In this document: positions 2,893 to 50,843 of the stretch, piece by piece
Position numbering within the stretch: the stretch's first letter is position 1
How the letters are laid out: each line of letters begins with the position of its first letter
Assembly (NCBI GenBank): GCA_019635875.1
Contig: JAHBYP010000001.1
Location: 1,054,001-1,118,000 of the forward strand
From: Alphaproteobacteria bacterium
GTDB taxonomy: Bacteria; Pseudomonadota; Alphaproteobacteria; Reyranellales; Reyranellaceae
Reading direction: 5' to 3'
Length of the DNA stretch: 64,000 bases
The notes under the pieces: model-generated
What the model was told of the DNA's origin: nothing
What the model saw: only the letters and a program-made list of their open reading frames with translations
The model's database searches: none
Made by a program: the position numbers and the translations under genes

Positions 2893-3301
2893 GTCAGACG
2901 GCTGGACGGCCGCGGCGCGGCCCCGCGAGGGATACCGCGTCGAGGAAAGTCCGGGCTCCACGGAAACACGGTGCCGGCTAACGGCCGGCGGGGGCGACCC
3001 CAGGGAAAGTGCCACAGAGAGCAGACCGCCGAACGGGCCTCGGCCCGTGGCAAGGGTGAAAGGGTGCGGTAAGGGCGCACCGCGCGACCGGCAACGGAAG
3101 CGGCACGGCAAACCCCACCGGGAGCAAGACCAAATAGGGATGGCACAGGCCGGGCAACCGGCCGCAACGCGTTTCCGCGTCGCCGTCCGGGTCGGTCGCG
3201 CGAGGCGTCCGGTGACGGGCGCCCCAGAGGAATGGTCGTCGAACGCCCCAAGGCTTTGGCCGGCGGGGCGGGAACAGAACCCGGCTTACAGGCCGTCTGA
3301 C
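2893..3301 (+). ncRNA. rnpB: RNase P RNA (M1 RNA), bacterial type A
   Basis: Catalytic RNA of ribonuclease P, which trims the 5' ends of tRNA precursors. The universally conserved CR-I block GAGGAAAGTCCGGGCTCC lies at 2942-2959; the matching CR-V block (ACAGAACCCGGCTTACA) is at 3274-3290, and the CR-IV-like CAAGACCAAATAGGG is near 3125-3139. The closing P1 helix pairs GTCAGACGGC (2893-2902) with GCCGTCTGAC (3292-3301); the mature ends may extend a few bases further. It sits 9 bases after the amidase stop and converges on the LRR gene. Reading frames across it are spurious. Confidence 0.97.
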
Positions 3302-3314
3302 GCCTTGCCCGAGC

Positions 3315-37091: not shown

Positions 37092-39506
37092 TCACGTCGT
37101 CTGGACGAAGCTGTCGAGAACCTTCTTCGAGCCGGCCTTGTCGAACTCGATGTCGAGCTTGTTGCCGTCGATCGCGGTGATCAGGCCGTAACCGAACTTC
37201 TGGTGGAAGACGCGCTGGCCGACCGACAGCGAATCGGCCGGCCGGTCGCCCTGGGCGCGGCGGTCGTCGAAGGTGTCCTCGCGGCCGAAGCGGCCGCGCT
37301 GGAACTGGCCGCGGCCGCTGCCTGATCCGCGCGTGGCCCCACCGATCTGGCGCGCGCGGTTCCAGTCCGGGCCCCAGTCGACGCTGTCGACATCGACGTC
37401 GGTCATGCCGGAGCCGCCGCCGCGCAGCCCGCCGAAATGACCGGCCGAGGCGGTGCCGTAGAGACCGGCATCGCTCGACGCCTCGACATGATCAGGCGGC
37501 AGCTCCTGCACGAAGCGCGAGGGGATCGCCGACACCCACTGATTGAAGACGCGGCGGTTGGCGGCGAACGAGATGTAGACCCGCTTGCGCGCGCGGGTGA
37601 TACCGACATAGGCCAGTCGACGCTCCTCCTCGAGGCCCGACAACCCGCTCTCGTCGAGCGCGCGCCTGTTGGGAAAGAGGTCCTCCTCCCAGCCCGGCAG
37701 GAAGACGGTGTCGAACTCCAGCCCCTTGGCGGCGTGCAGGGTCATGATGTTGACCATGTCGCCGCCGGCACGCTCGTTGCCCTCGGTGACCAGCGCCACA
37801 TGCTCGAGGAAGCCCGACAGCGAGTCGAACTCCTGCATGGCGTTGACCAGCTCCTTGAGGTTCTCCAGCCGGCCCGGCGCCTCGGGCGAGCGGTCGCGCT
37901 GCAGCATCTCGGTGTAGCCGGACTCGTCGAGCACGGTCTCGGCGACCTCGACATGCGGAAAGCCCTCGAGCATCCCGCGCCAGCGCTCGAAGCTCTTGAT
38001 CAGGTCGCCGAGAGTCTTGCGCTGCTTGGCCTTGAACTCATCGGTTTCCAGCGCGCGCCGCGCCGCCTCGAACAGGCTGACGCGCTGCGTCTTGCCGATG
38101 TCGCGCAGGGTCTTCAGGGCGGATTCACCCAGCCCGCGGCGTGGCACGTTGTAGATGCGCTCGAAGGCGAGATCGTCGTCGGGCTGCGCGATGATGCGCA
38201 GATAGGCCATCGCGTCGCGGATCTCCTGGCGCTCGTAGAAGCGCGGGCCGCCGATCACCTTGTAGGGCAGGCCGAGTGTGATGAAGCGCTCCTCGAACTC
38301 GCGCGTCTGGAAGCCGGCACGCACCAGGATGGCGATCTGCGACAGCGCGTGCTTCTCGCGCTGCAGCGCTTCGATCTCCTCGCCGACGGCGCGCGCCTCC
38401 TCGTCGCCGTCCCATACGCCGCGCAGGCGCACCTTGTCGCCCTCGGCCATGTCGGTCCACAGCGTCTTGCCCAGCCGCCCCTCGTTGTGGGCGATGACAT
38501 GGCTGGCGGCGGCGAGGATATGCGGCGTGCTGCGGTAGTTGCGCTCCAGCCGGATGACGGTGGCGCCGGGGAAATCCTTCTCGAAGCGCAGGATGTTGCC
38601 GACCTCGGCGCCGCGCCAGCCGTAGATCGACTGGTCGTCGTCGCCGACGCAGCAGATGTTGCGGTGCTGATCGCTGCCGCCACCCTGCGCCAGCAGGCGC
38701 AGCCACAGATACTGCGCGACGTTGGTGTCCTGGTACTCGTCGACCATGATGTAGCGGAAGCGCCGGTGGTAGTCGGCGAGGATGTCGGGGTGCTGCTGGA
38801 ACAGGCTCACGCAGTGCAGCACCAGGTCGCCGAAATCGGCGGCGTTCAGCTGCGCCAGGCGCTCCTGGTACTGCTTGTAGATGTCGACGGCGCGGCCGTT
38901 GGCGAACTCCGCCGAGTCGTCATGGTTGCCGACCTTGTCGGGGGTGAGCGCGCGGTCCTTCCAGCGCTGGATCACACCCGAGAGCACGCGGGCGGGAAAC
39001 TTCTTGTCGTCGATGCCCTCGACCTCCATCAGCTGCTTGAGCAGCCGTACCTGATCGTCGGTATCGAGGATGGTGAAGTTGCTCTTCAGTCCGACCAGCT
39101 CGGCGTGCCGGCGCAGGATGCGCACGCCGATCGAGTGGAAGGTGCCCAGCCACAGCCCGTCGGCGGCGTGGCCGATCAGCTGGCCGACGCGGTCGAGCAT
39201 CTCCCGCGCCGCCTTGTTGGTGAAGGTCACCGCCAGGATCTGGCTGGGAAAGGCCTTTCGCGCGAGCAGGATGTGGGCAATGCGGGTGATCAGCACGCGC
39301 GTCTTGCCGGTGCCGGCGCCGGCCAGCACCAGCAGCGGGCCCTCGGTGTGCTCCACCGCCTGGCGCTGTGTCTCGTTGAGCTTGCCGAGGTGGTCGACAG
39401 CCTCATGCGCCGGGGCCGCCGGCGCGGGGACGAAGCCGCGCCGGCGCGCGCCGGGCTGCGGGCCTGAGTCCTCGGGCTCGTCGGTCAATTCGAAGGGATC
39501 GGACAT
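37092..39506 (-). CDS. uvrD: UvrD/PcrA-type DNA helicase
   Basis: An 804-residue superfamily 1A helicase used in nucleotide excision and mismatch repair. Walker A GAGTGKT at 63-69; Walker B in VDEYQDTN; further motifs GDDDQSIYGWRGA, LERNYRST, TLHAAKGLEFDTVFL and AYVGITRARKRVY. The C-terminus (VFHQKFGYGLITAIDGNKLDIEF) is the Tudor-like domain of PcrA/UvrD that contacts RNA polymerase. I chose the ATG at 39506 (MSDPFELTDE); an ATG at 39515 is also possible, while the longer frame is unsupported. Confidence 0.93.
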   Translation of the reverse strand: MSDPFELTDEPEDSGPQPGARRRGFVPAPAAPAHEAVDHLGKLNETQRQAVEHTEGPLLVLAGAGTGKTRVLITRIAHILLARKAFPSQILAVTFTNKAAREMLDRVGQLIGHAADGLWLGTFHSIGVRILRRHAELVGLKSNFTILDTDDQVRLLKQLMEVEGIDDKKFPARVLSGVIQRWKDRALTPDKVGNHDDSAEFANGRAVDIYKQYQERLAQLNAADFGDLVLHCVSLFQQHPDILADYHRRFRYIMVDEYQDTNVAQYLWLRLLAQGGGSDQHRNICCVGDDDQSIYGWRGAEVGNILRFEKDFPGATVIRLERNYRSTPHILAAASHVIAHNEGRLGKTLWTDMAEGDKVRLRGVWDGDEEARAVGEEIEALQREKHALSQIAILVRAGFQTREFEERFITLGLPYKVIGGPRFYERQEIRDAMAYLRIIAQPDDDLAFERIYNVPRRGLGESALKTLRDIGKTQRVSLFEAARRALETDEFKAKQRKTLGDLIKSFERWRGMLEGFPHVEVAETVLDESGYTEMLQRDRSPEAPGRLENLKELVNAMQEFDSLSGFLEHVALVTEGNERAGGDMVNIMTLHAAKGLEFDTVFLPGWEEDLFPNRRALDESGLSGLEEERRLAYVGITRARKRVYISFAANRRVFNQWVSAIPSRFVQELPPDHVEASSDAGLYGTASAGHFGGLRGGGSGMTDVDVDSVDWGPDWNRARQIGGATRGSGSGRGQFQRGRFGREDTFDDRRAQGDRPADSLSVGQRVFHQKFGYGLITAIDGNKLDIEFDKAGSKKVLDSFVQTT

Positions 39507-41988: not shown

Positions 41989-44271
41989 TCACGAGCCCGA
42001 CCGATTCGCCGCCCCCGGCTTGGGCTGCAGATCCATGACCCGCGGGAACTCGCGCGCGACGGCGTCCGGCCGCAACGGCACACGGATGTACTCGCGCCGC
42101 TGCCACAGCGGCAGCTGATCGGCGTAGGCCGTGCTGCCCAGCCAGCCATCCTGGCCGCCGAACAGCAGGAACCAGTTGGCGTCGGGATCGGCCATGTCGG
42201 AAATGTGGCGCGACTGCGAGCCGTAGCGCGCATCGTGGCGATCGTTCACGAGGTCGTGCGCGGTCTTCATGACGGTCTCGCGCGAGCCGCCCGCCGGCAG
42301 GTCGGCGACGACGAAGGCGCCACCGATGAGTGGCGCATTGACCAGCAGGTGGGCGGCTCGCAGGCGATGCATGTCCCCCCATGTGGCGAAGCGCGCCGCG
42401 TCGCGCGCCGCCGCCGACAGCGCCGCCGCCAGCACGGCGTGCCGCCGCGCCGTCGGCAGCGCTTCCAGGTCGGCGACGAAGAAGCGCGTTATGTGGGGCC
42501 ATTGCAGGTACACGCCGGGCAGGTCGCGGTGGCTGGCGGCGCCATACACGGCAGGAAGCAGGTGGAAGAGCAGCGTTTCGAACGCCACCGGGCCCGGCGA
42601 ATTCGCGCGATAGTCACCGTCCCAGTCGGCCAGCCGCCGCACGAAGTCGGGTGCGACGCCGTCGAGGCCCGCCGCCCCGATCGCACCGAGAATGCCCTTG
42701 CCGACCGCGAGCGCCTTCTCAGATCGCGTGTCGCCCTGCAGGGCCATCAGATCCTCCACGGAGATGCTGGGCCGATCGCGCAGCAGCGCCTGCAGCCGGC
42801 CCACACGCTCGTCGTCGCTGAAGAAGAAGCCGATCGGCGTCCTCGACACGGCCGGCCTGTTGTTGGCAGAGGCGACGAAGCCCTCTGCAGGGTTGAGCGT
42901 ATGCGGCAGGTCGCCGGCCTCGACGAAGCCGCGCCAATGCGTCGCCGGATCGGCGGCGTCGAGCACCGGGTCGTCGTGGCGCAAGCTGTCGCGCGCCGGC
43001 AGTGTCGCGGCGAGAACCTGGCCGACATTGCCGCGCGAATCGGCGAACAGCATGTTCTGCGCCGACACGCCGAAGCCCGAGAAGGCGCGGCGGAACTCGT
43101 CCGGCGTACGGGCGCGCGAGGCGCGCAACAGGGCGGTGATCTCGTCGGTCGGCTCGTGACCGATCCAGCGCAGCGCGATCATCTCGCCTGGCCTGGCCTG
43201 GATCATCGGCGAGTCCGACACGATCGGGCCGAATGGGCTCATGCGGGTCGCGCGGACGCTGTCGAACCAGGCACGCACGCCGATGCGGACCTCCTTGCGC
43301 GTGATCGCATCCGGCGACAGCTTCGAGACGTCGTACAGGTCGCTGGAGGCGGCGCGCATGTTGGTCCCGCCCCACGCCATGTCGGGGCTCCGGCCCAGCG
43401 CCACGAAGGGCAGCCCGGGCACCATCAGCCCTACCATGTTGTAGCTCGGCGAGCGCATGCCGACGATCAGCCAGGCGTTGGGCAGAGAGAGGCCTAGATG
43501 CGGATCGCTGGCGATCAGCGCACCGCCGGTGGCGCTGTTGCGCGCCGAGACCGCGACCGAGTTGCTGCCCGAGCGGCTGCGACCGGCCAGGATGTCGCTG
43601 AGCACGGTTTCCTGCGGTGTCGCGGCGAAGCTGGTCGCCCCATCGGCGCCCGCTGCCAGCGTGCGCCGCCAGATCTCGGCGAAGCCAGGCTTGCCGCGCT
43701 CCTTCAGCATGGCGAAGTAAACCAGCCAGTTGACATCCGCGCCAGCCAGCCGACCGATCGTGAGGATGTCGCGCAGCGTCCAGGGCTCGGCGGCAATGCC
43801 CATCAACCCGAACTCCGGCGGCTTGTGGCGCCGGCGCGACTGGTAGTGATTCATGCCGTCGACGAAGGCCTGGGCGAAGTCCTGGGTGTCCGCGGGCATG
43901 CGCGCGATCACAGCGTCGACAGCGCGACCCAGTCCCAGAATGCGCAGCGAATGATCGATGTCGACGGTGAACGGTCCCGCCGATTCCGAAAGCCGGCCCT
44001 GCGATATGCGGCGCAGGACCTCGAGCTGACCCTCGCGCAGATGCAGATGGACCATGCCGAGCGCGAAGGCGAGATCGCGGTCGGTGGCCGCATCGATGAA
44101 GGGCACCTGATGCGCGTTCCAGCGGATGGTTACCGGCTCGGCCAGTGGCAGCTCTGTGGTGGGAAAGCCCGACAGTCGATCCTCGCTGGTGGTGCGCTGC
44201 GGCGAGAGCGCAGCGCACCCCGGAAGCACGAGCGCAAGCACGCCGAGCAGGACTTGCCGAGCCGCACGCAT
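41989..44271 (-). CDS. Penicillin-acylase-family lipoprotein (Ntn amidohydrolase)
   Basis: A 760-residue Ntn hydrolase precursor. Signal peptide with lipobox LVLPGC (Cys19), alpha chain, spacer, and the autocleavage point at GSNSVAV, giving Ser236 as the new N-terminal nucleophile; the usual Trp of GSNxW is Val here. ASDPHLGLSLPNAWLIVGM follows, as in the family. Relatives cleave amides of penicillins, cephalosporins or acyl-homoserine lactones. The substrate is unknown, and the adjoining GH3 synthetase suggests N-acyl amino acids. A strong GAGGAGGTGG ribosome-binding site fixes the start at 44271. Confidence 0.88.
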   Translation of the reverse strand: MRAARQVLLGVLALVLPGCAALSPQRTTSEDRLSGFPTTELPLAEPVTIRWNAHQVPFIDAATDRDLAFALGMVHLHLREGQLEVLRRISQGRLSESAGPFTVDIDHSLRILGLGRAVDAVIARMPADTQDFAQAFVDGMNHYQSRRRHKPPEFGLMGIAAEPWTLRDILTIGRLAGADVNWLVYFAMLKERGKPGFAEIWRRTLAAGADGATSFAATPQETVLSDILAGRSRSGSNSVAVSARNSATGGALIASDPHLGLSLPNAWLIVGMRSPSYNMVGLMVPGLPFVALGRSPDMAWGGTNMRAASSDLYDVSKLSPDAITRKEVRIGVRAWFDSVRATRMSPFGPIVSDSPMIQARPGEMIALRWIGHEPTDEITALLRASRARTPDEFRRAFSGFGVSAQNMLFADSRGNVGQVLAATLPARDSLRHDDPVLDAADPATHWRGFVEAGDLPHTLNPAEGFVASANNRPAVSRTPIGFFFSDDERVGRLQALLRDRPSISVEDLMALQGDTRSEKALAVGKGILGAIGAAGLDGVAPDFVRRLADWDGDYRANSPGPVAFETLLFHLLPAVYGAASHRDLPGVYLQWPHITRFFVADLEALPTARRHAVLAAALSAAARDAARFATWGDMHRLRAAHLLVNAPLIGGAFVVADLPAGGSRETVMKTAHDLVNDRHDARYGSQSRHISDMADPDANWFLLFGGQDGWLGSTAYADQLPLWQRREYIRVPLRPDAVAREFPRVMDLQPKPGAANRSGS

Positions 44272-44441
44272 GTCGCCACCTCCTCGGAAGTTGCTTTCGC
44301 CCTCTTGGGCGCTGAGGTTAACATGGCTCATTTCCGGATTGGCGACAGGCTGATATGGGATCGGCCAGAGGCCGAGTTGCGGGGTTCCGGTACCCCGTCG
44401 ACGTGGTACCCTCGACCACTGAAAGCGGAGGTCGGTTTGCC

Positions 44442-45479
44442 ATGAGAGCGTCCCGACGGTTCTTGGCGCTGGCGGCGTTCCTTGCGGTCGTCGTCGGCCT
44501 GTCGCCGGCTGTGGCGCAGACGGCAGGCAAGCCGACGACGAGCGAGCCAGCGGCGCGCGCACTGAGCGATGCGGTGAAGGCGGTGCTGGCCTCGCTGGTG
44601 ACCGTGAAGAGCACCGTGCCGCGCGAGGCGCGCAGCGCGCGCAATCTCGGCACAGAGCGCGAAGGTCACGGCGTCGTGATCGACGACGAGGGCCTGGTGC
44701 TGACCGTCGGCTACCTCGTGCTCGAGGCCAACAGCGTCGAGATCGTCCAGGACAGCGGCAGGCGCGCTTCGGCGATGGTCGTGTCCTACGACTACGATTC
44801 CGGCTTCGCGCTGGTGCGTACCGCCATCCCGTTGAAGCTCAAGCCGGTGGCCTTCGGCGATTCGGACGTGCTCAAGCAGCGAGACAGCATCGTGGTCGCC
44901 GGCGCTGGCGGCGAGGACAAGGCGCTGCGTGGCCTGGTCGCCGACCGCCGCCAGTTCGCCGGCTACTGGGAGTACCTGCTCGACAACGCGATCTTCACGG
45001 TGCCGCCGTACCACAACTGGGGCGGCGCGGCGCTGCTCAACGAGCAGGGGGCGCTGATGGGCATCGGCTCGCTGCAGGTGCCCGATGCCTATCGCGGTGG
45101 GCGCAGCTTCCCCGGCAACATGTTCATCCCGATCAATCGGCTGAAGCCGATCTTCGAGACCATGAAGGCGGGGCGCCGGCCGGAAGGTTCCAAGCCGTGG
45201 ATCGGCATCACGACACACGAGGCGCGCGGCCGCCTGATCATCGCCAGTGTTCAGCCCGGCAGCCCGGCGGAGAGCGCCGGCCTGCGCCGCGGCGACGTCG
45301 TGCGCGCGGTCGGCGGCACCGAGGTCGATTCGCTGGCCGAGTTCTACAGCAATCTGTGGAAGGCGGGGCCGAGCGGCACCACCGTCACGCTGGGCATCGA
45401 TCGCGGCGGCGAGCGCGTCGACGTGGCGGTGCGTTCCGGCGACCGTTACAAGTACCTGCGGCTCGACAGCAGCCTGTAG
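44442..45479 (+). CDS. HtrA/S1C-like protein with PDZ domain, catalytic triad lost (secreted)
   Basis: A 345-residue protein with a signal peptide (~1-25, AVAQ). The DegP-like trypsin fold (~40-245) is recognisable, but every catalytic residue is replaced. Where TNNHV is expected it has TVGYLV (88-93); the Asp position (DIAL) reads GFAL with G121; GNSGGA is HNWGGA with W193. A PDZ domain follows (~250-335, SVQPGSPAESAGLRRGDVV). It is therefore predicted to bind rather than cut peptides in the periplasm. It is divergent from the acylase across 170 bases and followed after 21 bases by its paralogue. Confidence 0.82.
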   Translation: MRASRRFLALAAFLAVVVGLSPAVAQTAGKPTTSEPAARALSDAVKAVLASLVTVKSTVPREARSARNLGTEREGHGVVIDDEGLVLTVGYLVLEANSVEIVQDSGRRASAMVVSYDYDSGFALVRTAIPLKLKPVAFGDSDVLKQRDSIVVAGAGGEDKALRGLVADRRQFAGYWEYLLDNAIFTVPPYHNWGGAALLNEQGALMGIGSLQVPDAYRGGRSFPGNMFIPINRLKPIFETMKAGRRPEGSKPWIGITTHEARGRLIIASVQPGSPAESAGLRRGDVVRAVGGTEVDSLAEFYSNLWKAGPSGTTVTLGIDRGGERVDVAVRSGDRYKYLRLDSSL

Positions 45480-45500
45480 CGTCCGAACGAGGAGACCACC

Positions 45501-46538
45501 ATGTCGCGTCAGACGTCCGGGCCGACGACGATCACCATGGCCAGCCTGATGCCGATCTTCCCCGACGCCTCCGACGAGGCCGAGGAGCAGAACGAGGAGC
45601 GTTCATCCGAGCGTCGGCGCGGCATTCCGGCGCCGCCGGGGCTGGTACGCGCCATGCGCTCGGTGGTCGGGCTGAAGTCCAGCGTGCCCAAGGATGCGCG
45701 CACCGCCGAGACGCTGGGCACCGAGCGCGGCGGCCACGGCATCGTCATCGACGACCAGGGCCTGGTGGTGACCGTCGGCTACCTGATCATGGAAGCCAGC
45801 AGCGTCGAGATCGTCGAGCCGGGCGGCCGCTCGGTGCCGGCGCGTGTCATCGCCTACGATTTCTCGACCGGCTTCGGCCTGGTGCGCGCCACGCTGCCGA
45901 CGCGGGTCAAGCCGGTGAGCTTCGGCGATTCGCAATCGGTGAAGAACAAGGACACGGTGACCATCGCCGGCTTCGGCGGCGGCGCCGCGCAACGCGCCAT
46001 CGTCACCGACCGTCGCGACTTCGCCGGTTACTGGGAGTACTTCATCGAGAACGCGATCTTCACCTCGCCGCCCTATGAGTCGTTCGGCGGTGCGGCGCTG
46101 TTCACCGACGATGGCGAACTCCTTGGCGTCGGCTCGCTGTTCATTGGCGATGCCTATCGTGGGCCCTCGGGCGTGCTGCCCGGCAACATGTTCATCCCGA
46201 TCGACCGGCTGCCCGCCGTGCTCGACTTGGTGAAGGAAGGCAAGCGGCCAGGCCTCGGGCGGCCGTGGCTCGGCCTTTACGCCCAGCAGGTACCGGGCGG
46301 GTTGGTGATCGCCCATGTGTCGCCCGACGGGCCCGCGGCGCGCGCCGGGCTCAGGCGCGGCGACGCGATCAACAGCGTCGGCGACGTGCTGGTCGACGAA
46401 GTCTCGATGTTCTATCGCGCGGTGTGGAGCGCCGGCCCGGCCGGCACGCGCATCACGCTCAGCATCGAGCGCGAGGGCGACGAGTTCGATGTCACCATCC
46501 GCACCGTCGACCGCTATGATTTCCTCAAGCTCGACTAA
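45501..46538 (+). CDS. HtrA/S1C-like protein with PDZ domain, catalytic triad lost (no signal peptide)
   Basis: A 345-residue paralogue of the preceding protein, similar along its length (for example VTVGYLIMEASSVEIVEPGG and DRRDFAGYWEYFIENAIFT). The catalytic positions are again gone: TVGYL for TNNHV, GFGL for DIAL, and SFGGAA for NSGGA with F195 at the serine site. The PDZ domain is kept (~260-335). The N-terminus (~1-45) is acidic and Ser/Glu-rich with no clear signal peptide, so it may be cytoplasmic. GAGGAG before the ATG is a strong ribosome-binding site. Confidence 0.82.
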   Translation: MSRQTSGPTTITMASLMPIFPDASDEAEEQNEERSSERRRGIPAPPGLVRAMRSVVGLKSSVPKDARTAETLGTERGGHGIVIDDQGLVVTVGYLIMEASSVEIVEPGGRSVPARVIAYDFSTGFGLVRATLPTRVKPVSFGDSQSVKNKDTVTIAGFGGGAAQRAIVTDRRDFAGYWEYFIENAIFTSPPYESFGGAALFTDDGELLGVGSLFIGDAYRGPSGVLPGNMFIPIDRLPAVLDLVKEGKRPGLGRPWLGLYAQQVPGGLVIAHVSPDGPAARAGLRRGDAINSVGDVLVDEVSMFYRAVWSAGPAGTRITLSIEREGDEFDVTIRTVDRYDFLKLD

Positions 46539-46586: not shown

Positions 46587-47543
46587 ATGAGCAGGGCTTT
46601 CGCCTCACAGGCGGATACCGAAGACAAGAAGATCACCTTCAGCCGCCTGTCGGAGCACGCCTACGCCTTCACGGCCGAGGGCGATCCCAACACCGGAATC
46701 GTCGTCGGCGACGACTGCGTGATGGTGATCGACGCGCAGGCGACGCCCGTGATGGCGCAGACGGTAATCGAGAAGATCCGCACCGTCACCGACAAGCCGA
46801 TCCGTTACGTCGTGCTGACGCACTACCACGCGGTGCGGGTGCTGGGCGCCTCGGGCTACGCGCCGCAGCACATCATCTGCAGCGAGGCGACGCGCGACCT
46901 GATCGTCGAGCGCGGCGCGCAGGACATGAAGTCGGAGATCCAGCGCTTTCCGCGCCTGTTCCGCGCCGTCGAGTCGATACCCGGCCTGACCTGGCCCACC
47001 ATTACATTCCACGACCGCATGAGCATCTGGCTGGGCAGGCTGGAGGTGCAGATCATCCACGCCGGACGCGGCCACACCAAGGGCGACACCATCGTCTGGC
47101 TGCCCGAGGAGAAGACGCTGTTCAGCGGCGATCTCGTCGAGTTCGCTGCCACACCCTACGCCGGCGACGCCTATTTCGAGGAGTGGCCGCACACCCTCCA
47201 GAAGCTGCGCGACCTGAAGGCGGCGGCGCTGGTGCCGGGTCGCGGCGACGCGCTGATGGGCGCCGAGCAGGTCGAGGCGGGGCTGAGCGGCACCCAGGGC
47301 TTCATCGCCGAGCTCTACACCGAAGTGAAGAAGCGCGCCGATGCCGGCGGCGACCTCAAGACGGCCTACGATTCGGCGATGGTGGCGATGCGGCCGCGCT
47401 ACGGCAACTGGGTGATCTTCGACCACTGCATGCCGTTCGACGTGTCGCGCGCCTACGACGAGGCCAAGGGCATCGCCGATCCGCGCATCTGGACCGCCGA
47501 GCGCGACATCGAGATGTGGAAGGCGCTTGAGCAACAGCCGTAG
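46587..47543 (+). CDS. Metallo-beta-lactamase-fold protein with altered metal site
   Basis: A 318-residue MBL-fold protein. The HxHxDH motif reads HYHAVR (79-84): the first two histidines remain, but the Asp and third His are Val and Arg. The later ligands H163 (AGRGHTKGD) and D182 (FSGDLVE) are present. It may bind a single metal or have lost hydrolase activity. The fold covers lactonases, glyoxalase II-type thioesterases and more, so the reaction is open. It lies 48 bases after the second pseudoprotease, on the same strand. Confidence 0.8.
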   Translation: MSRAFASQADTEDKKITFSRLSEHAYAFTAEGDPNTGIVVGDDCVMVIDAQATPVMAQTVIEKIRTVTDKPIRYVVLTHYHAVRVLGASGYAPQHIICSEATRDLIVERGAQDMKSEIQRFPRLFRAVESIPGLTWPTITFHDRMSIWLGRLEVQIIHAGRGHTKGDTIVWLPEEKTLFSGDLVEFAATPYAGDAYFEEWPHTLQKLRDLKAAALVPGRGDALMGAEQVEAGLSGTQGFIAELYTEVKKRADAGGDLKTAYDSAMVAMRPRYGNWVIFDHCMPFDVSRAYDEAKGIADPRIWTAERDIEMWKALEQQP

Positions 47544-47664: not shown

Positions 47665-49329
47665 ATGGCCTCCTACACCTATCCGAAGTACGTCTACGTC
47701 CCACCGCCCGAGCTGGTGCTGAAGCCTGGGGGGCCGCAGACCGTGCCGGTGCTGATCGTCGGTGCCGGGCCTGTGGGACTCACGCTCGCGCTCGATCTCG
47801 CGCTGAAGGGCATTCCCGTCACCGTGCTCGACGAGGACGATACGGTGAGCGTCGGCAGCCGCTCGATCTGCCAGGCCCAGCGCACGCTGGAGATCTGGCA
47901 CCGGCTGGGAGTCGCCGACCGCATGGTGGCCAAGGGCGTGACTTGGGACGAGGGCGAGGTGCTGCTGGGCGACCGGCCGCTCTACCGCTTCAACCTGCAG
48001 CCCGAGCCCGGCCACCGTTTCCCGGCCTTCATCAACCTGCAGCAATACTACTGCGAGCAATACCTGGTAGAGCGCTGCCTGCAGGAGGACAAGGTCGACC
48101 TGCGCTTTCTCAGCAGGCTGGTCGGCGTACGGCCCGACAGGGAGCACGTCGAGGTCGACATCCAGACGCCGGACGGCACCTACCAGCTTCGAGGGCAGTG
48201 GCTGGTGGCCTGCGACGGCGTACGCAGCCCGGTGCGCACCATGCTCGGCCTGCCCTACGAAGGCGAGGTGTTCGACGATCAGTTCCTGATTGCCGACATC
48301 CGCATGACGGCCGACCTGCCGAAGATCCGCCGCTACTGGTTCTATCCGCCGTTCCATCCCACGGACTCGGTGCTGCTGCATCGCCAGGCAGACAACGTGC
48401 TGCGCGTCGACTTCCAGCTCGGCCGCGACGCCGACGCCGAGGAGGAGCGCAAGCCGGCCAATATTGACCGGCGCCTGCGCATGATGTTCGGACCGGACGC
48501 ACGCTGGGAGCACGAGTGGAGCAGCGTCTACAAGTTCAGCTGCCGCGCCATGCCGCGCTTCGTGCATGGCCGCGTGATCTTCGCCGGCGACGCCGCGCAT
48601 GTCGTGTCGCCGTTCGGCGCGCGCGGCGGCAATTCCGGCGTCGAGGACGCCGACAATCTCGGCTGGAAGCTGGCGCTGCTGCTCAACGGCCACGCCTCAG
48701 CCTCGCTGCTCGCCAGCTACGACAAGGAGCGGGGTGCGGCGGCTCGCGAGAACATCCGTCAGTCGACGCGCAGCACGGACTACATCACGCCGAAATTCCC
48801 GGCTGCGCGCCTGCTGCGCGACGCCTCGCTGTCGCTGGCGCGCGACTTCGCGTTCGCCCGCGCCATGGTCAACAGCGGGCGCCTGTCGCGACCGACGCCC
48901 TACGCCGACTCGCCGATCAGCACGCCCGATGACATCATCGCGACCTGGGACGTCGCGGCGCCGGCGCCCGGCATGCCGCTGCCCGACGCTCCGCTGGGCG
49001 AAGGCTGGCTGACCGAGCTTGTCGCCGGCCGCTTCGCCGTGCTCGTCTTCGCCGAGCGCGCCGCGTCGCTCGACGCGGCCGAGGCCCGCCGAGTCGCCGA
49101 CATGGCCGACGAGATCCCCGGCTTCGTGCCGATCCTGGTCACGCGAGACCGCTTGGGTGCGCCGAATGGCTGGACCACGGCGATCGACAAGGCCGGCCTC
49201 GCCGCGCGGCGCTGCGATGCGCAGGACGGCACGACCTATCTCATCCGGCCGGACCAGTATGTCGCGGGACGGTGGCGCAAGCTGCACGACTCGACCATCT
49301 GGTCGGCGCTCAAGCGGGCGACGTCATGA
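47665..49329 (+). CDS. FAD-dependent aromatic hydroxylase (PheA/TfdB/MhpA type)
   Basis: A 554-residue class A flavoprotein monooxygenase. Rossmann GAGPVG at 33-38; the DG motif in ACDGVRSPVRTMLG; the GD motif in FAGDAAHVVSPFGARGGNSGVEDADNLGWKLAL (starting near residue 308). The C-terminal thioredoxin-like domain is as in phenol hydroxylases. It likely adds oxygen to an aromatic ring using NAD(P)H. A DUF2783 gene is coupled to it by a 4-base overlap, a pairing I associate with this hydroxylase subgroup. Confidence 0.87.
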   Translation: MASYTYPKYVYVPPPELVLKPGGPQTVPVLIVGAGPVGLTLALDLALKGIPVTVLDEDDTVSVGSRSICQAQRTLEIWHRLGVADRMVAKGVTWDEGEVLLGDRPLYRFNLQPEPGHRFPAFINLQQYYCEQYLVERCLQEDKVDLRFLSRLVGVRPDREHVEVDIQTPDGTYQLRGQWLVACDGVRSPVRTMLGLPYEGEVFDDQFLIADIRMTADLPKIRRYWFYPPFHPTDSVLLHRQADNVLRVDFQLGRDADAEEERKPANIDRRLRMMFGPDARWEHEWSSVYKFSCRAMPRFVHGRVIFAGDAAHVVSPFGARGGNSGVEDADNLGWKLALLLNGHASASLLASYDKERGAAARENIRQSTRSTDYITPKFPAARLLRDASLSLARDFAFARAMVNSGRLSRPTPYADSPISTPDDIIATWDVAAPAPGMPLPDAPLGEGWLTELVAGRFAVLVFAERAASLDAAEARRVADMADEIPGFVPILVTRDRLGAPNGWTTAIDKAGLAARRCDAQDGTTYLIRPDQYVAGRWRKLHDSTIWSALKRATS

Positions 49330-49526
49330 GCACACTGAAGGACGAACTCAACCTCGCGCGGCCCGACGATATCTACAACCTGATCGTCGACGCGCACAAA
49401 GGCCTGACACCGGAGCAGAGCGAGAGACTCAACGCCGCGCTGGTGCTGCTTCTGGCCAACCATGTCGGCGACGAGGGTGTGATCCGCCAGGCGGTGGCGG
49501 CGGCGCGCAAGAGCCTCACCGCCTGA
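49326..49526 (+). CDS. DUF2783 protein
   Basis: A 66-residue protein beginning MSTLKDELNLARPDDIYNLIVDAHKGLTPEQ. The pattern of a short helical protein with DD.Y..L..AH.GL....S fits DUF2783. Its ATG overlaps the hydroxylase stop (ATGA), so the two are made together; it may assist that enzyme. Function unknown. Its last 11 bases overlap the end of the convergent acetyltransferase gene. Confidence 0.75.
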   Translation: MSTLKDELNLARPDDIYNLIVDAHKGLTPEQSERLNAALVLLLANHVGDEGVIRQAVAAARKSLTA

Positions 49527-50307
49527 AGCGACTCATCCACTCCACGGCGTAGTCGACCAGCGCGCGCTGGCGCATCAGCCGTGCAGTGGCGGCGCCGACC
49601 CTGCCGACGCGGACGGCGCCGGCGTCGCGCTCGAGATTGTCGCCCAGCCGCGCGAAATCCGAATCGTCGAAGTCGAGGTCGTCGACCTCCAGCCAGTGCC
49701 GCGCGCCGTCGATCGTGACTGGGCTGGCAAAGGTCGCATGCCGCCGGGACGGCCAGTGCGCGCGGTACTCAGCGAGATGCAGCGAGGTGTTGCGCTCGTG
49801 GCTGACGCCCAGCAGCAGCACGTCGGCGTCCAGGTCGTACAGCCGCGCCAGCGGCGAGCGTTCACCCATGGCGCAGTTGAGCGAATGATCGTCCGTGATG
49901 AAGCCCGCGCGCGGGCCGCGTGCGGCGAAGGATTGGCGCGGATGGGCACTGCGGCGCACGCCGGGGTGCGTGCGGAAGCTCTCGGCGATCGCGCCCATGA
50001 TGCGCGTGGGCGTGATGGCCGGGTCGTAGGCCGGCATCTCGGCGCGGATGCGGCCGTGCCACTCGACTGGCACCGGCGGGGCGACCCAGCCGGCGGGATC
50101 GGACAGGCCGCCGCTATGCGTCGGCATGACCAGCGTGCCCTCGGACCCCAGCGCCGTGGAGAGCGCGGCGATCACCGCTGGCGCGTCGCCGATCACCCAG
50201 CCGAGCGATGACAGGGAGGAATGCACGATCATGGTCGCGCCCGGCCGCACGCCCAGCGCGCGCAGGTCGGTGGTCAGCGAGGCGGTGCTGACCGGCGGGC
50301 CGCCCAT
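49516..50307 (-). CDS. AAC(3)-fold N-acetyltransferase family protein
   Basis: A 263-residue member of the Antibiotic_NAT (aminoglycoside 3-N-acetyltransferase) fold. MIVHSSLSSLGWVIG, GTLVMPTHS, RSAHPRQSFAARGP and LGVSHERNTSLHLAEYRA are the conserved blocks, the last holding the catalytic His/Glu region. Many members are not resistance enzymes, and the catabolic operon context argues against resistance. Its ATG overlaps the stop of the upstream thioesterase (TGATG). It is the last gene of a five-gene minus-strand operon. Confidence 0.8.
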   Translation of the reverse strand: MGGPPVSTASLTTDLRALGVRPGATMIVHSSLSSLGWVIGDAPAVIAALSTALGSEGTLVMPTHSGGLSDPAGWVAPPVPVEWHGRIRAEMPAYDPAITPTRIMGAIAESFRTHPGVRRSAHPRQSFAARGPRAGFITDDHSLNCAMGERSPLARLYDLDADVLLLGVSHERNTSLHLAEYRAHWPSRRHATFASPVTIDGARHWLEVDDLDFDDSDFARLGDNLERDAGAVRVGRVGAATARLMRQRALVDYAVEWMSRFRR

Positions 50308-50843
50308 CAGCGCCTGGGGATGCCGATCAGGCGGCCGGATTTCGCCGGCTTCGGCAGCTTGCCATGCGCCTCGGCCATGCGCGCGATGCGATCCTGCACG
50401 ACCCGGCGGAAGGGCGCTGATCTCCGCGTCCCGGCGTCGATGTGCATGATCATCGATTCGCAGGTCGAGGCGAGGAAACCTTCCTCGGCGTGATACATCT
50501 GATGGAACAGATGCAGGCGCTTGGCGTCGTGGTCGAGGAGCTGGGTTGTAAAGCGCAGCGGCGCGCCGCCTCTCAGCTCGCGGTCGTAGGTGATGTGGGC
50601 CTCGAGCACGAAGGTCATGCCGAGCTTGTTGTCGATGTAGCGGCGGCCCATGCCGATCTGGGTGTGGAAGGCGCCGGAGGCGTAGTCGAAAGCCTCCATG
50701 TAGCGCGCCATGTTCATGTGGCCGTTCCAGTCGACCCACTCGTCCTTGACGACGGCGCGGTGGCGGTCGAGCGGCGCCACGAGGTCGAGCTCGGGCAGCT
50801 CGTAGGGCAGGGGTGCCTCGTCGGCGTGCAATGTGTCGGGCAT
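50307..50843 (-). CDS. Hotdog-fold acyl-CoA thioesterase, paralogue B
   Basis: A 178-residue 4-hydroxybenzoyl-CoA-thioesterase-like protein. The active-site loop DWNGHMN (38-44) has the Asp and the HM typical of the YbgC/FadM branch. It is clearly homologous to the next gene upstream, sharing DWNGHMN, KxGMTFVLEAH.TYDRE, DAKR, MYHA.EGFLAST and a C-terminal GR.IGI.R. It should hydrolyse an acyl-CoA in the cytoplasm; the substrate is unknown. It starts 8 bases after paralogue A and overlaps the acetyltransferase gene. Confidence 0.85.
   Translation of the reverse strand: MPDTLHADEAPLPYELPELDLVAPLDRHRAVVKDEWVDWNGHMNMARYMEAFDYASGAFHTQIGMGRRYIDNKLGMTFVLEAHITYDRELRGGAPLRFTTQLLDHDAKRLHLFHQMYHAEEGFLASTCESMIMHIDAGTRRSAPFRRVVQDRIARMAEAHGKLPKPAKSGRLIGIPRR

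Follow-up and report, generated by a model that had tools for sequence, protein, structure and literature searches.

Two adjacent genes in a genome of the Reyranellaceae (Alphaproteobacteria) encode HtrA-like paralogues, P0001 and P0002, in which none of the three catalytic positions holds its usual residue. We consider the pair to belong to an old pseudo-HtrA family in which proteolysis was given up for a binding or scaffold role, with two putative ligand sites retained; we assign this reading a probability of about 0.6. The window analysed was a stretch of 64,000 nucleotides of contig JAHBYP010000001.1, and all positions refer to it. Hundreds of genes in Alphaproteobacteria and neighbouring groups, including nitrogen-fixing rhizobia and Azospirillum, are labelled serine proteases and are probably not proteases.

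The tandem pair and its fold

The two ORFs are intact, lie on the + strand and are separated by 21 bp; their coordinates were confirmed. The features of the pair are as follows.

44427..44431, + strand: GGAGG, ribosome-binding-site-like, 5′ of the P0001 ATG (sequence)
44442..45479, + strand: P0001, pseudo-HtrA of 345 aa with a trypsin-like domain, one PDZ and a conserved C-terminal tail, signal-peptide-bearing (ORF, Pfam, phmmer, AlphaFold, Foldseek/VIA)
44442..44519, + strand: P0001 signal-peptide-like segment, residues 1-26, with RR, a hydrophobic core and AVAQ (sequence, hydrophobicity rule)
44712..44714, + strand: P0001 Tyr91, catalytic His column (alignments)
44802..44804, + strand: P0001 Gly121, catalytic Asp column (alignments)
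45018..45023, + strand: P0001 Trp193-Gly194, the aromatic residue preceding the Ser column and then Gly in the catalytic Ser column (alignments)
45195..45434, + strand: P0001 PDZ, residues 252-331, with a carboxylate-loop-like P-W-x-G (Pfam, family alignment)
45441..45476, + strand: P0001 C-terminal tail DRYKYLRLDSSL, with a hydrophobic last residue, typical of signal-peptide members (family comparison)
45489..45494, + strand: GAGGAG, ribosome-binding-site-like, 5′ of the P0002 ATG (sequence)
45501..46538, + strand: P0002, pseudo-HtrA of 345 aa without a signal peptide (ORF, Pfam, phmmer, AlphaFold)
45501..45641, + strand: P0002 acidic N-terminus, of low model confidence, probably a decayed signal peptide (comparison with secreted relatives)
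45780..45782, + strand: P0002 Tyr94, catalytic His column (alignments)
45870..45872, + strand: P0002 Gly124, catalytic Asp column (alignments)
46083..46088, + strand: P0002 Phe195-Gly196, the residue preceding the Ser column and then the Ser column (alignments)
46263..46502, + strand: P0002 PDZ, residues 255-334 (Pfam)

P0001 and P0002 share 53% identity over 295 residues. Both scored above the Pfam cut-offs for Trypsin_2 and PDZ (PDZ_2, PDZ_6 and PDZ all passed), and their best PDB matches by phmmer were DegQ/DegP. The family-based AlphaFold models of the two proteins had a mean pLDDT of 88 and a pTM of 0.82-0.83, with low confidence at both N-termini and in the last five residues of P0001. 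The P0001 model, the one used for structural searches, matched DegQ, DegP and HtrA chains including HtrA1 (Foldseek E 1e-23, VIA Z 23-26). The retention of a trypsin-like fold and a PDZ domain, as claimed in the earlier note, thus agrees with Pfam and AlphaFold for both copies and with Foldseek/VIA for P0001, and both proteins are predicted to have an HtrA-type chymotrypsin-like double barrel with one C-terminal PDZ. Neither reached the NCBIfam cut-offs for the Do family, DegP, DegQ, DegS or HtrA; the best was TIGR02037, which scored 93 bits where the cut-off is 416.

Loss of the catalytic triad

In three intact HtrAs encoded in the same genome, the corresponding motifs are TNNHV, (T/I/Y)D(L/I)A and GNSGG. 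In both P0001 and P0002, the His column is occupied by Tyr, with TVGYL in the place of TNNHV, and the Asp column by Gly (SGFAL in P0001, TGFGL in P0002). These two replacements are as the earlier note had described them (GFAL/GFGL for DIAL in the second case). It had also placed W193 and F195 at the serine position, which is off by one. Three alignments (phmmer to DegQ, the family profile to PDB HtrAs, and hhalign to the HtrAs of this genome) put Gly194 of P0001 and Gly196 of P0002 in the catalytic Ser column, with the aromatic residue directly preceding it; in the family profile and hhalign alignments this residue falls on the Asn of GNSGG. This correction of register leaves the conclusion standing: in the alignment to DegP-type structures that the note had suggested, the triad columns of both copies read Tyr, Gly and Gly. 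A substitute triad, which would have spoken against the loss, did not emerge from the sequences, as no His column exceeded 42% in 59 members and Cys was nearly absent, with none conserved. From these sequences we infer that P0001 and P0002 lack proteolytic activity. The three intact HtrAs could still supply proteolysis in this organism.

A widespread family without His and Asp

By profile search, members of the family turned up in 27 of 41 close relatives; in the wider sets the figures were 42 of 190 genomes for the class and 35 of 398 for the phylum. A scan of contigs yielded at least 583 encoding stretches, 80 of which were kept for analysis. According to record titles, these came mostly from Alphaproteobacteria, with some from Beta- and Gammaproteobacteria and one titled Deltaproteobacteria.

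The replacements at the catalytic columns are shared across the family. The His column is Tyr in 127 of 129 members and Phe in the other two, Gly occupies the Asp column in every one of the 59 members aligned, and the residue preceding the Ser column is aromatic or His in 59/59. The Ser column itself is more variable (Gly 92, Ser 22, Ala 9, Thr 3 and Pro 1 among 127 scored relatives), and Ser in this column (22/127) is always accompanied by Tyr or Phe at the His column. These Ser-column relatives, among them L040, L047, L055 and L057, have neither His nor Asp at the other two positions (WSGAAL around the Ser). In the PDZ, P252, W253 and G255 (P0001 numbering) are each found in 59/59. P0001 and P0002 both carry the family marks, namely the Tyr and Gly columns, the aromatic residue before the Ser column, and the motifs RR-F-AGYWEY and PGNMFxPI; these two motifs also served as search patterns, so that their presence needs caution. 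A short N-G-(H/Y)-(K/R) motif soon after the start was observed in L037, L047, L049, L057, L101, L115 and L134, whether or not a signal-peptide-like stretch was present.

Members in Rhizobium, Neorhizobium, Phyllobacterium and others are annotated as ‘S1C family serine protease’ or ‘signal protein PDZ’. The former name implies an activity that these sequences cannot sustain through the known mechanism.

Because every examined member lacks His and, where aligned, Asp, the loss of the triad is ancestral to a family that spans several proteobacterial classes. The earlier note had stated that the loss came before the duplication and has been kept. It is indeed older and maintained, but this greatly understated the case, since the loss is family-wide (about 130 relatives without His). 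Three members of the genus have both copies, as does one further genus of Reyranellaceae; in the contig of the latter (G004) a stop interrupts the upstream copy. Family and genus are assigned here from the tree, in which Reyranella soli and other Reyranella records grouped with genomes of the same family. The tandem duplication is a late event at the level of the Reyranellaceae within the older pseudo-HtrA family. A lone member also occurs in a single-contig genome of the same class of only 1.21 Mb, SAR11-like in size (L140:8930-9931), with no operon around the family gene.

Conservation and selection

Conservation was strongest around the former active site and in the PDZ binding loop. Mean entropies among 59 members were 0.86 bits for the His loop, 0.77 for the Asp loop and 0.67 for the PDZ carboxylate loop; the protease domain as a whole had 1.48 and the PDZ 1.73. 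Neither the His loop nor the Asp loop was among the search patterns. The L1 region is also conserved (0.96 bits), a value that is biased because one of the search patterns falls in L1.

Within the genus, omega was 0.18-0.31 for P0001 and 0.05-0.07 for P0002, and within P0002 it was 0-0.08 for the acidic N-terminus and 0.01-0.03 for the PDZ. Purifying selection thus acts on both copies; the earlier note had proposed to look for it at the PDZ groove, where the P0002 PDZ omega and the low entropy of the carboxylate loop agree with it. Such a pattern of constraint in the sequences is more readily explained by a binding site that has been retained than by decay. With the loops of the old active site and of the PDZ best conserved, no conserved His, and purifying selection, the family is therefore read as one of putative non-catalytic binding or scaffold proteins.

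Compartments and the C-terminal tail

P0001 begins with the signal-peptide-like sequence MRASRRFLALAAFLAVVVGLSPAVAQ, and the start of P0002 is acidic, without a signal peptide. Signal peptides were assigned by a hydrophobicity rule plus reading, and the N-terminal sequences assigned in this way bear out the earlier description of the two starts. The two copies probably work in different compartments, as had been proposed. By eye, MSRQ...ITMASLMPIFPD of P0002 aligns with MPRQ...IAIASLVPVFLGG of secreted single-copy relatives, and the acidic N-terminus is probably a decayed signal peptide, itself under constraint. With an exported and a non-exported copy side by side in one operon, the pair would be a clean test system for why a dead HtrA scaffold persists.

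Most members of the family have a signal-peptide-like start; the exceptions are Reyranella (MARGLNGS...), the P0002 clade and one rhizobial clade. The last residue is Y, F, L, I or V in 67 of 76 members with a signal peptide versus 1 of 51 without one, and in 16% of conserved neighbouring genes. This hydrophobic end is usually preceded by Ser or Thr and lies at a near-constant distance from an invariant Arg. P0001 ends in SSL, the type with a signal peptide, and P0002 in KLD, the type without. On the trees, the signal-peptide label changed three to four times, and an independent-pairs test of signal peptide versus C-terminal residue, with 2-3 pairs, was not significant (p 0.5). Because the label changed about three times, which gives two to three independent contrasts, the link of the tail to the signal peptide is suggestive and is taken here as a lead.

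In the reading favoured here, the scheme would be as follows. One putative ligand site would be the former active-site cleft, now reshaped, and the other the PDZ, which would take protein C-termini. P0001 would most likely be periplasmic. Its tail, DRYxYL(K/R)LxxS(Y/L/F), may be a ligand for the PDZ of a neighbouring subunit, leading to self-assembly, or for that of an active periplasmic HtrA. P0002, with its signal peptide and tail residue lost, would most likely be cytosolic. A bolder version, which we hold as tentative, is that the family tail is a PDZ ligand that builds periplasmic homo- or hetero-assemblies, that several moves to the cytosol entailed loss of both signal peptide and tail ligand, that this tandem pair contains both modes, and that the former active site has become a new, strongly conserved ligand pocket.

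The possible docking of the tail on an active HtrA leads to a different reading, in which the proteins are non-catalytic activators or inhibitors that tune proteolysis, either by joining hetero-oligomers or by docking their tail in the PDZ domains of DegP/DegQ/DegS-like enzymes. Exported members do have the hydrophobic tail, three active-type HtrAs are encoded in this genome, and MamO activates MamE without catalysis (PMC4794232). However, activation by MamO needs a TauE domain that the pair lacks, htrA was not a recurrent neighbour of the family gene in the loci examined, and the non-exported lineages would be left unexplained. We regard a regulatory role of this kind as rather improbable.

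Gene neighbourhood

Downstream of the pair, two co-directional genes follow.

46587..47543, + strand: metallo-beta-lactamase-fold (MBL) protein (homologue adjoins the pseudo-HtrA gene in 19/81 loci, nearly all Reyranellaceae-like)
47665..49329, + strand: FAD-dependent oxidoreductase, PRK08132 subfamily (homologue downstream in 13/81 loci)

In Reyranellaceae-like genomes, the pseudo-HtrA gene heads a same-strand run with these two genes. No partner gene was shared across the 81 loci and 49 further loci; the context varies by lineage and names no pathway. Contexts with UvrD/PrmA, MBL/FAD, DUF992, MlaC-like, DUF465 and NUDIX/PALP genes each recur in a part of the family only, and guilt by association was rejected as a guide to function. 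In several loci, further ORFs some 2.5 kb upstream (37437-39467 in the window) lie on the strand opposite to uvrD and were grouped with the family by accident.

The lineage-specific run would also suit a binder of a small molecule or metal, in which the ligand of an aromatic-lined site would be tied to an oxidative or hydrolytic pathway with the downstream metallo-hydrolase and FAD oxidoreductase. Such a role would agree with the aromatic residues that now stand where the catalytic ones were, and pca genes occur near the family gene in two rhizobial plasmids. However, the operon link is lineage-restricted, other genes intervene between the pca genes and the family gene, and the family has no conserved His or Cys as a metal ligand. 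This explanation is unlikely.

Several other features of the window were observed. The usual metallo-beta-lactamase motif is HxHxDH. The MBL-fold protein has HYHAVR at this site and VPGRG close to where the last His is normally found, and from its sequence it appears to have lost the second-site metal ligands and kept the first-site His and the bridging Asp. VPGRG is common to most MBL homologues located beside pseudo-HtrA genes, and HYHAVR together with VPGRG is also found in PDB 8d2z. A penicillin-amidase-family protein (41989-44562, - strand) is divergent from P0001, and its N-terminus from an internal Met resembles a lipoprotein signal. An aminoglycoside 3-N-acetyltransferase-like domain (49516-50739, - strand), which stays under the NCBIfam cut-offs, adjoins thioesterase-like genes, and a bacterial RNase P RNA of class A is located at 2894-3304.

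Residual catalysis or decay

A hydrolase with a non-canonical site, using for example a conserved Tyr, Glu or Ser210 without His, could be imagined from the conserved polar residues Y91, E95, D117, E177 and S210 and from the 22 relatives with Ser in the nucleophile column. Since Ser occupies this column in about one sixth of relatives, some unusual mechanism that works without His is conceivable there. However, both P0001 and P0002 lack Ser in this column, no conserved His or Lys base lies near the loops, and S210 is on a later strand of the model; we consider such an enzyme very improbable. Decaying pseudogenes or leftovers of duplication, which annotated proteases without a triad and the stop-split upstream copy of G004 might bring to mind, can practically be dismissed, since purifying selection on both copies contradicts decay, the ORFs are intact in the three genus members with the pair, and the family has been kept across several classes and in the 1.21-Mb genome.

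Comparison with known systems

Inactive serine-protease homologues have been counted earlier in prokaryotes (42/966; PMC2605481). The pseudo-HtrA proteins resemble the HtrA/Deg proteases (MEROPS S1C: DegQ, DegP, DegS and HhoA) in their trypsin-like domain plus PDZ, their fold and 20-29% identity. They differ from these in that the pair has neither His nor Asp, Gly at the Ser position and one PDZ, and in that some lineages of the family have no signal peptide.

The closest precedents are MamO and PflC, which show that an HtrA scaffold can be put to a new use (PMC4794232, PMC12222027). MamO is likewise HtrA-derived, with a degenerate triad and a bulky aromatic residue in loop L1, and is needed for proteolysis by MamE, acting non-catalytically (PMC4794232). 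However, H116 and D149 are kept in MamO, its nucleophile is Thr, and it carries a di-His that binds metal as well as a TauE domain at the C-terminus (PMC4794232). The pseudo-HtrA family has no His column above the 42% given earlier that could match the di-His site, and the 345 aa of each protein of the pair comprise trypsin and PDZ only. MamO was not among the PDB matches listed, which is no evidence of absence. PflC, of the Campylobacter flagellar medial disk, is a periplasmic HtrA that has lost catalysis and serves as a scaffold, with two PDZ-like domains, the His loop lost altogether and a C-terminal PDZ without the binding loop (PMC12222027). In contrast, the proteins of the pair have one PDZ, and the former catalytic loops of the family, including the His loop, and its PDZ carboxylate loop are strongly conserved. 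The family therefore lacks the tested defining features of MamO, of PflC and of HtrA catalysis, yet has the HtrA fold.

A search of the open-access literature, annotation names included, found no paper on the pseudo-HtrA family. The repurposing of HtrA itself is already known; what is new is a broad family of repurposed HtrA. Known HtrA pseudoproteases are narrow in distribution, being confined to magnetosomes and one type of flagellar motor, and the present family is far wider, with its constraint centred on the old active site.
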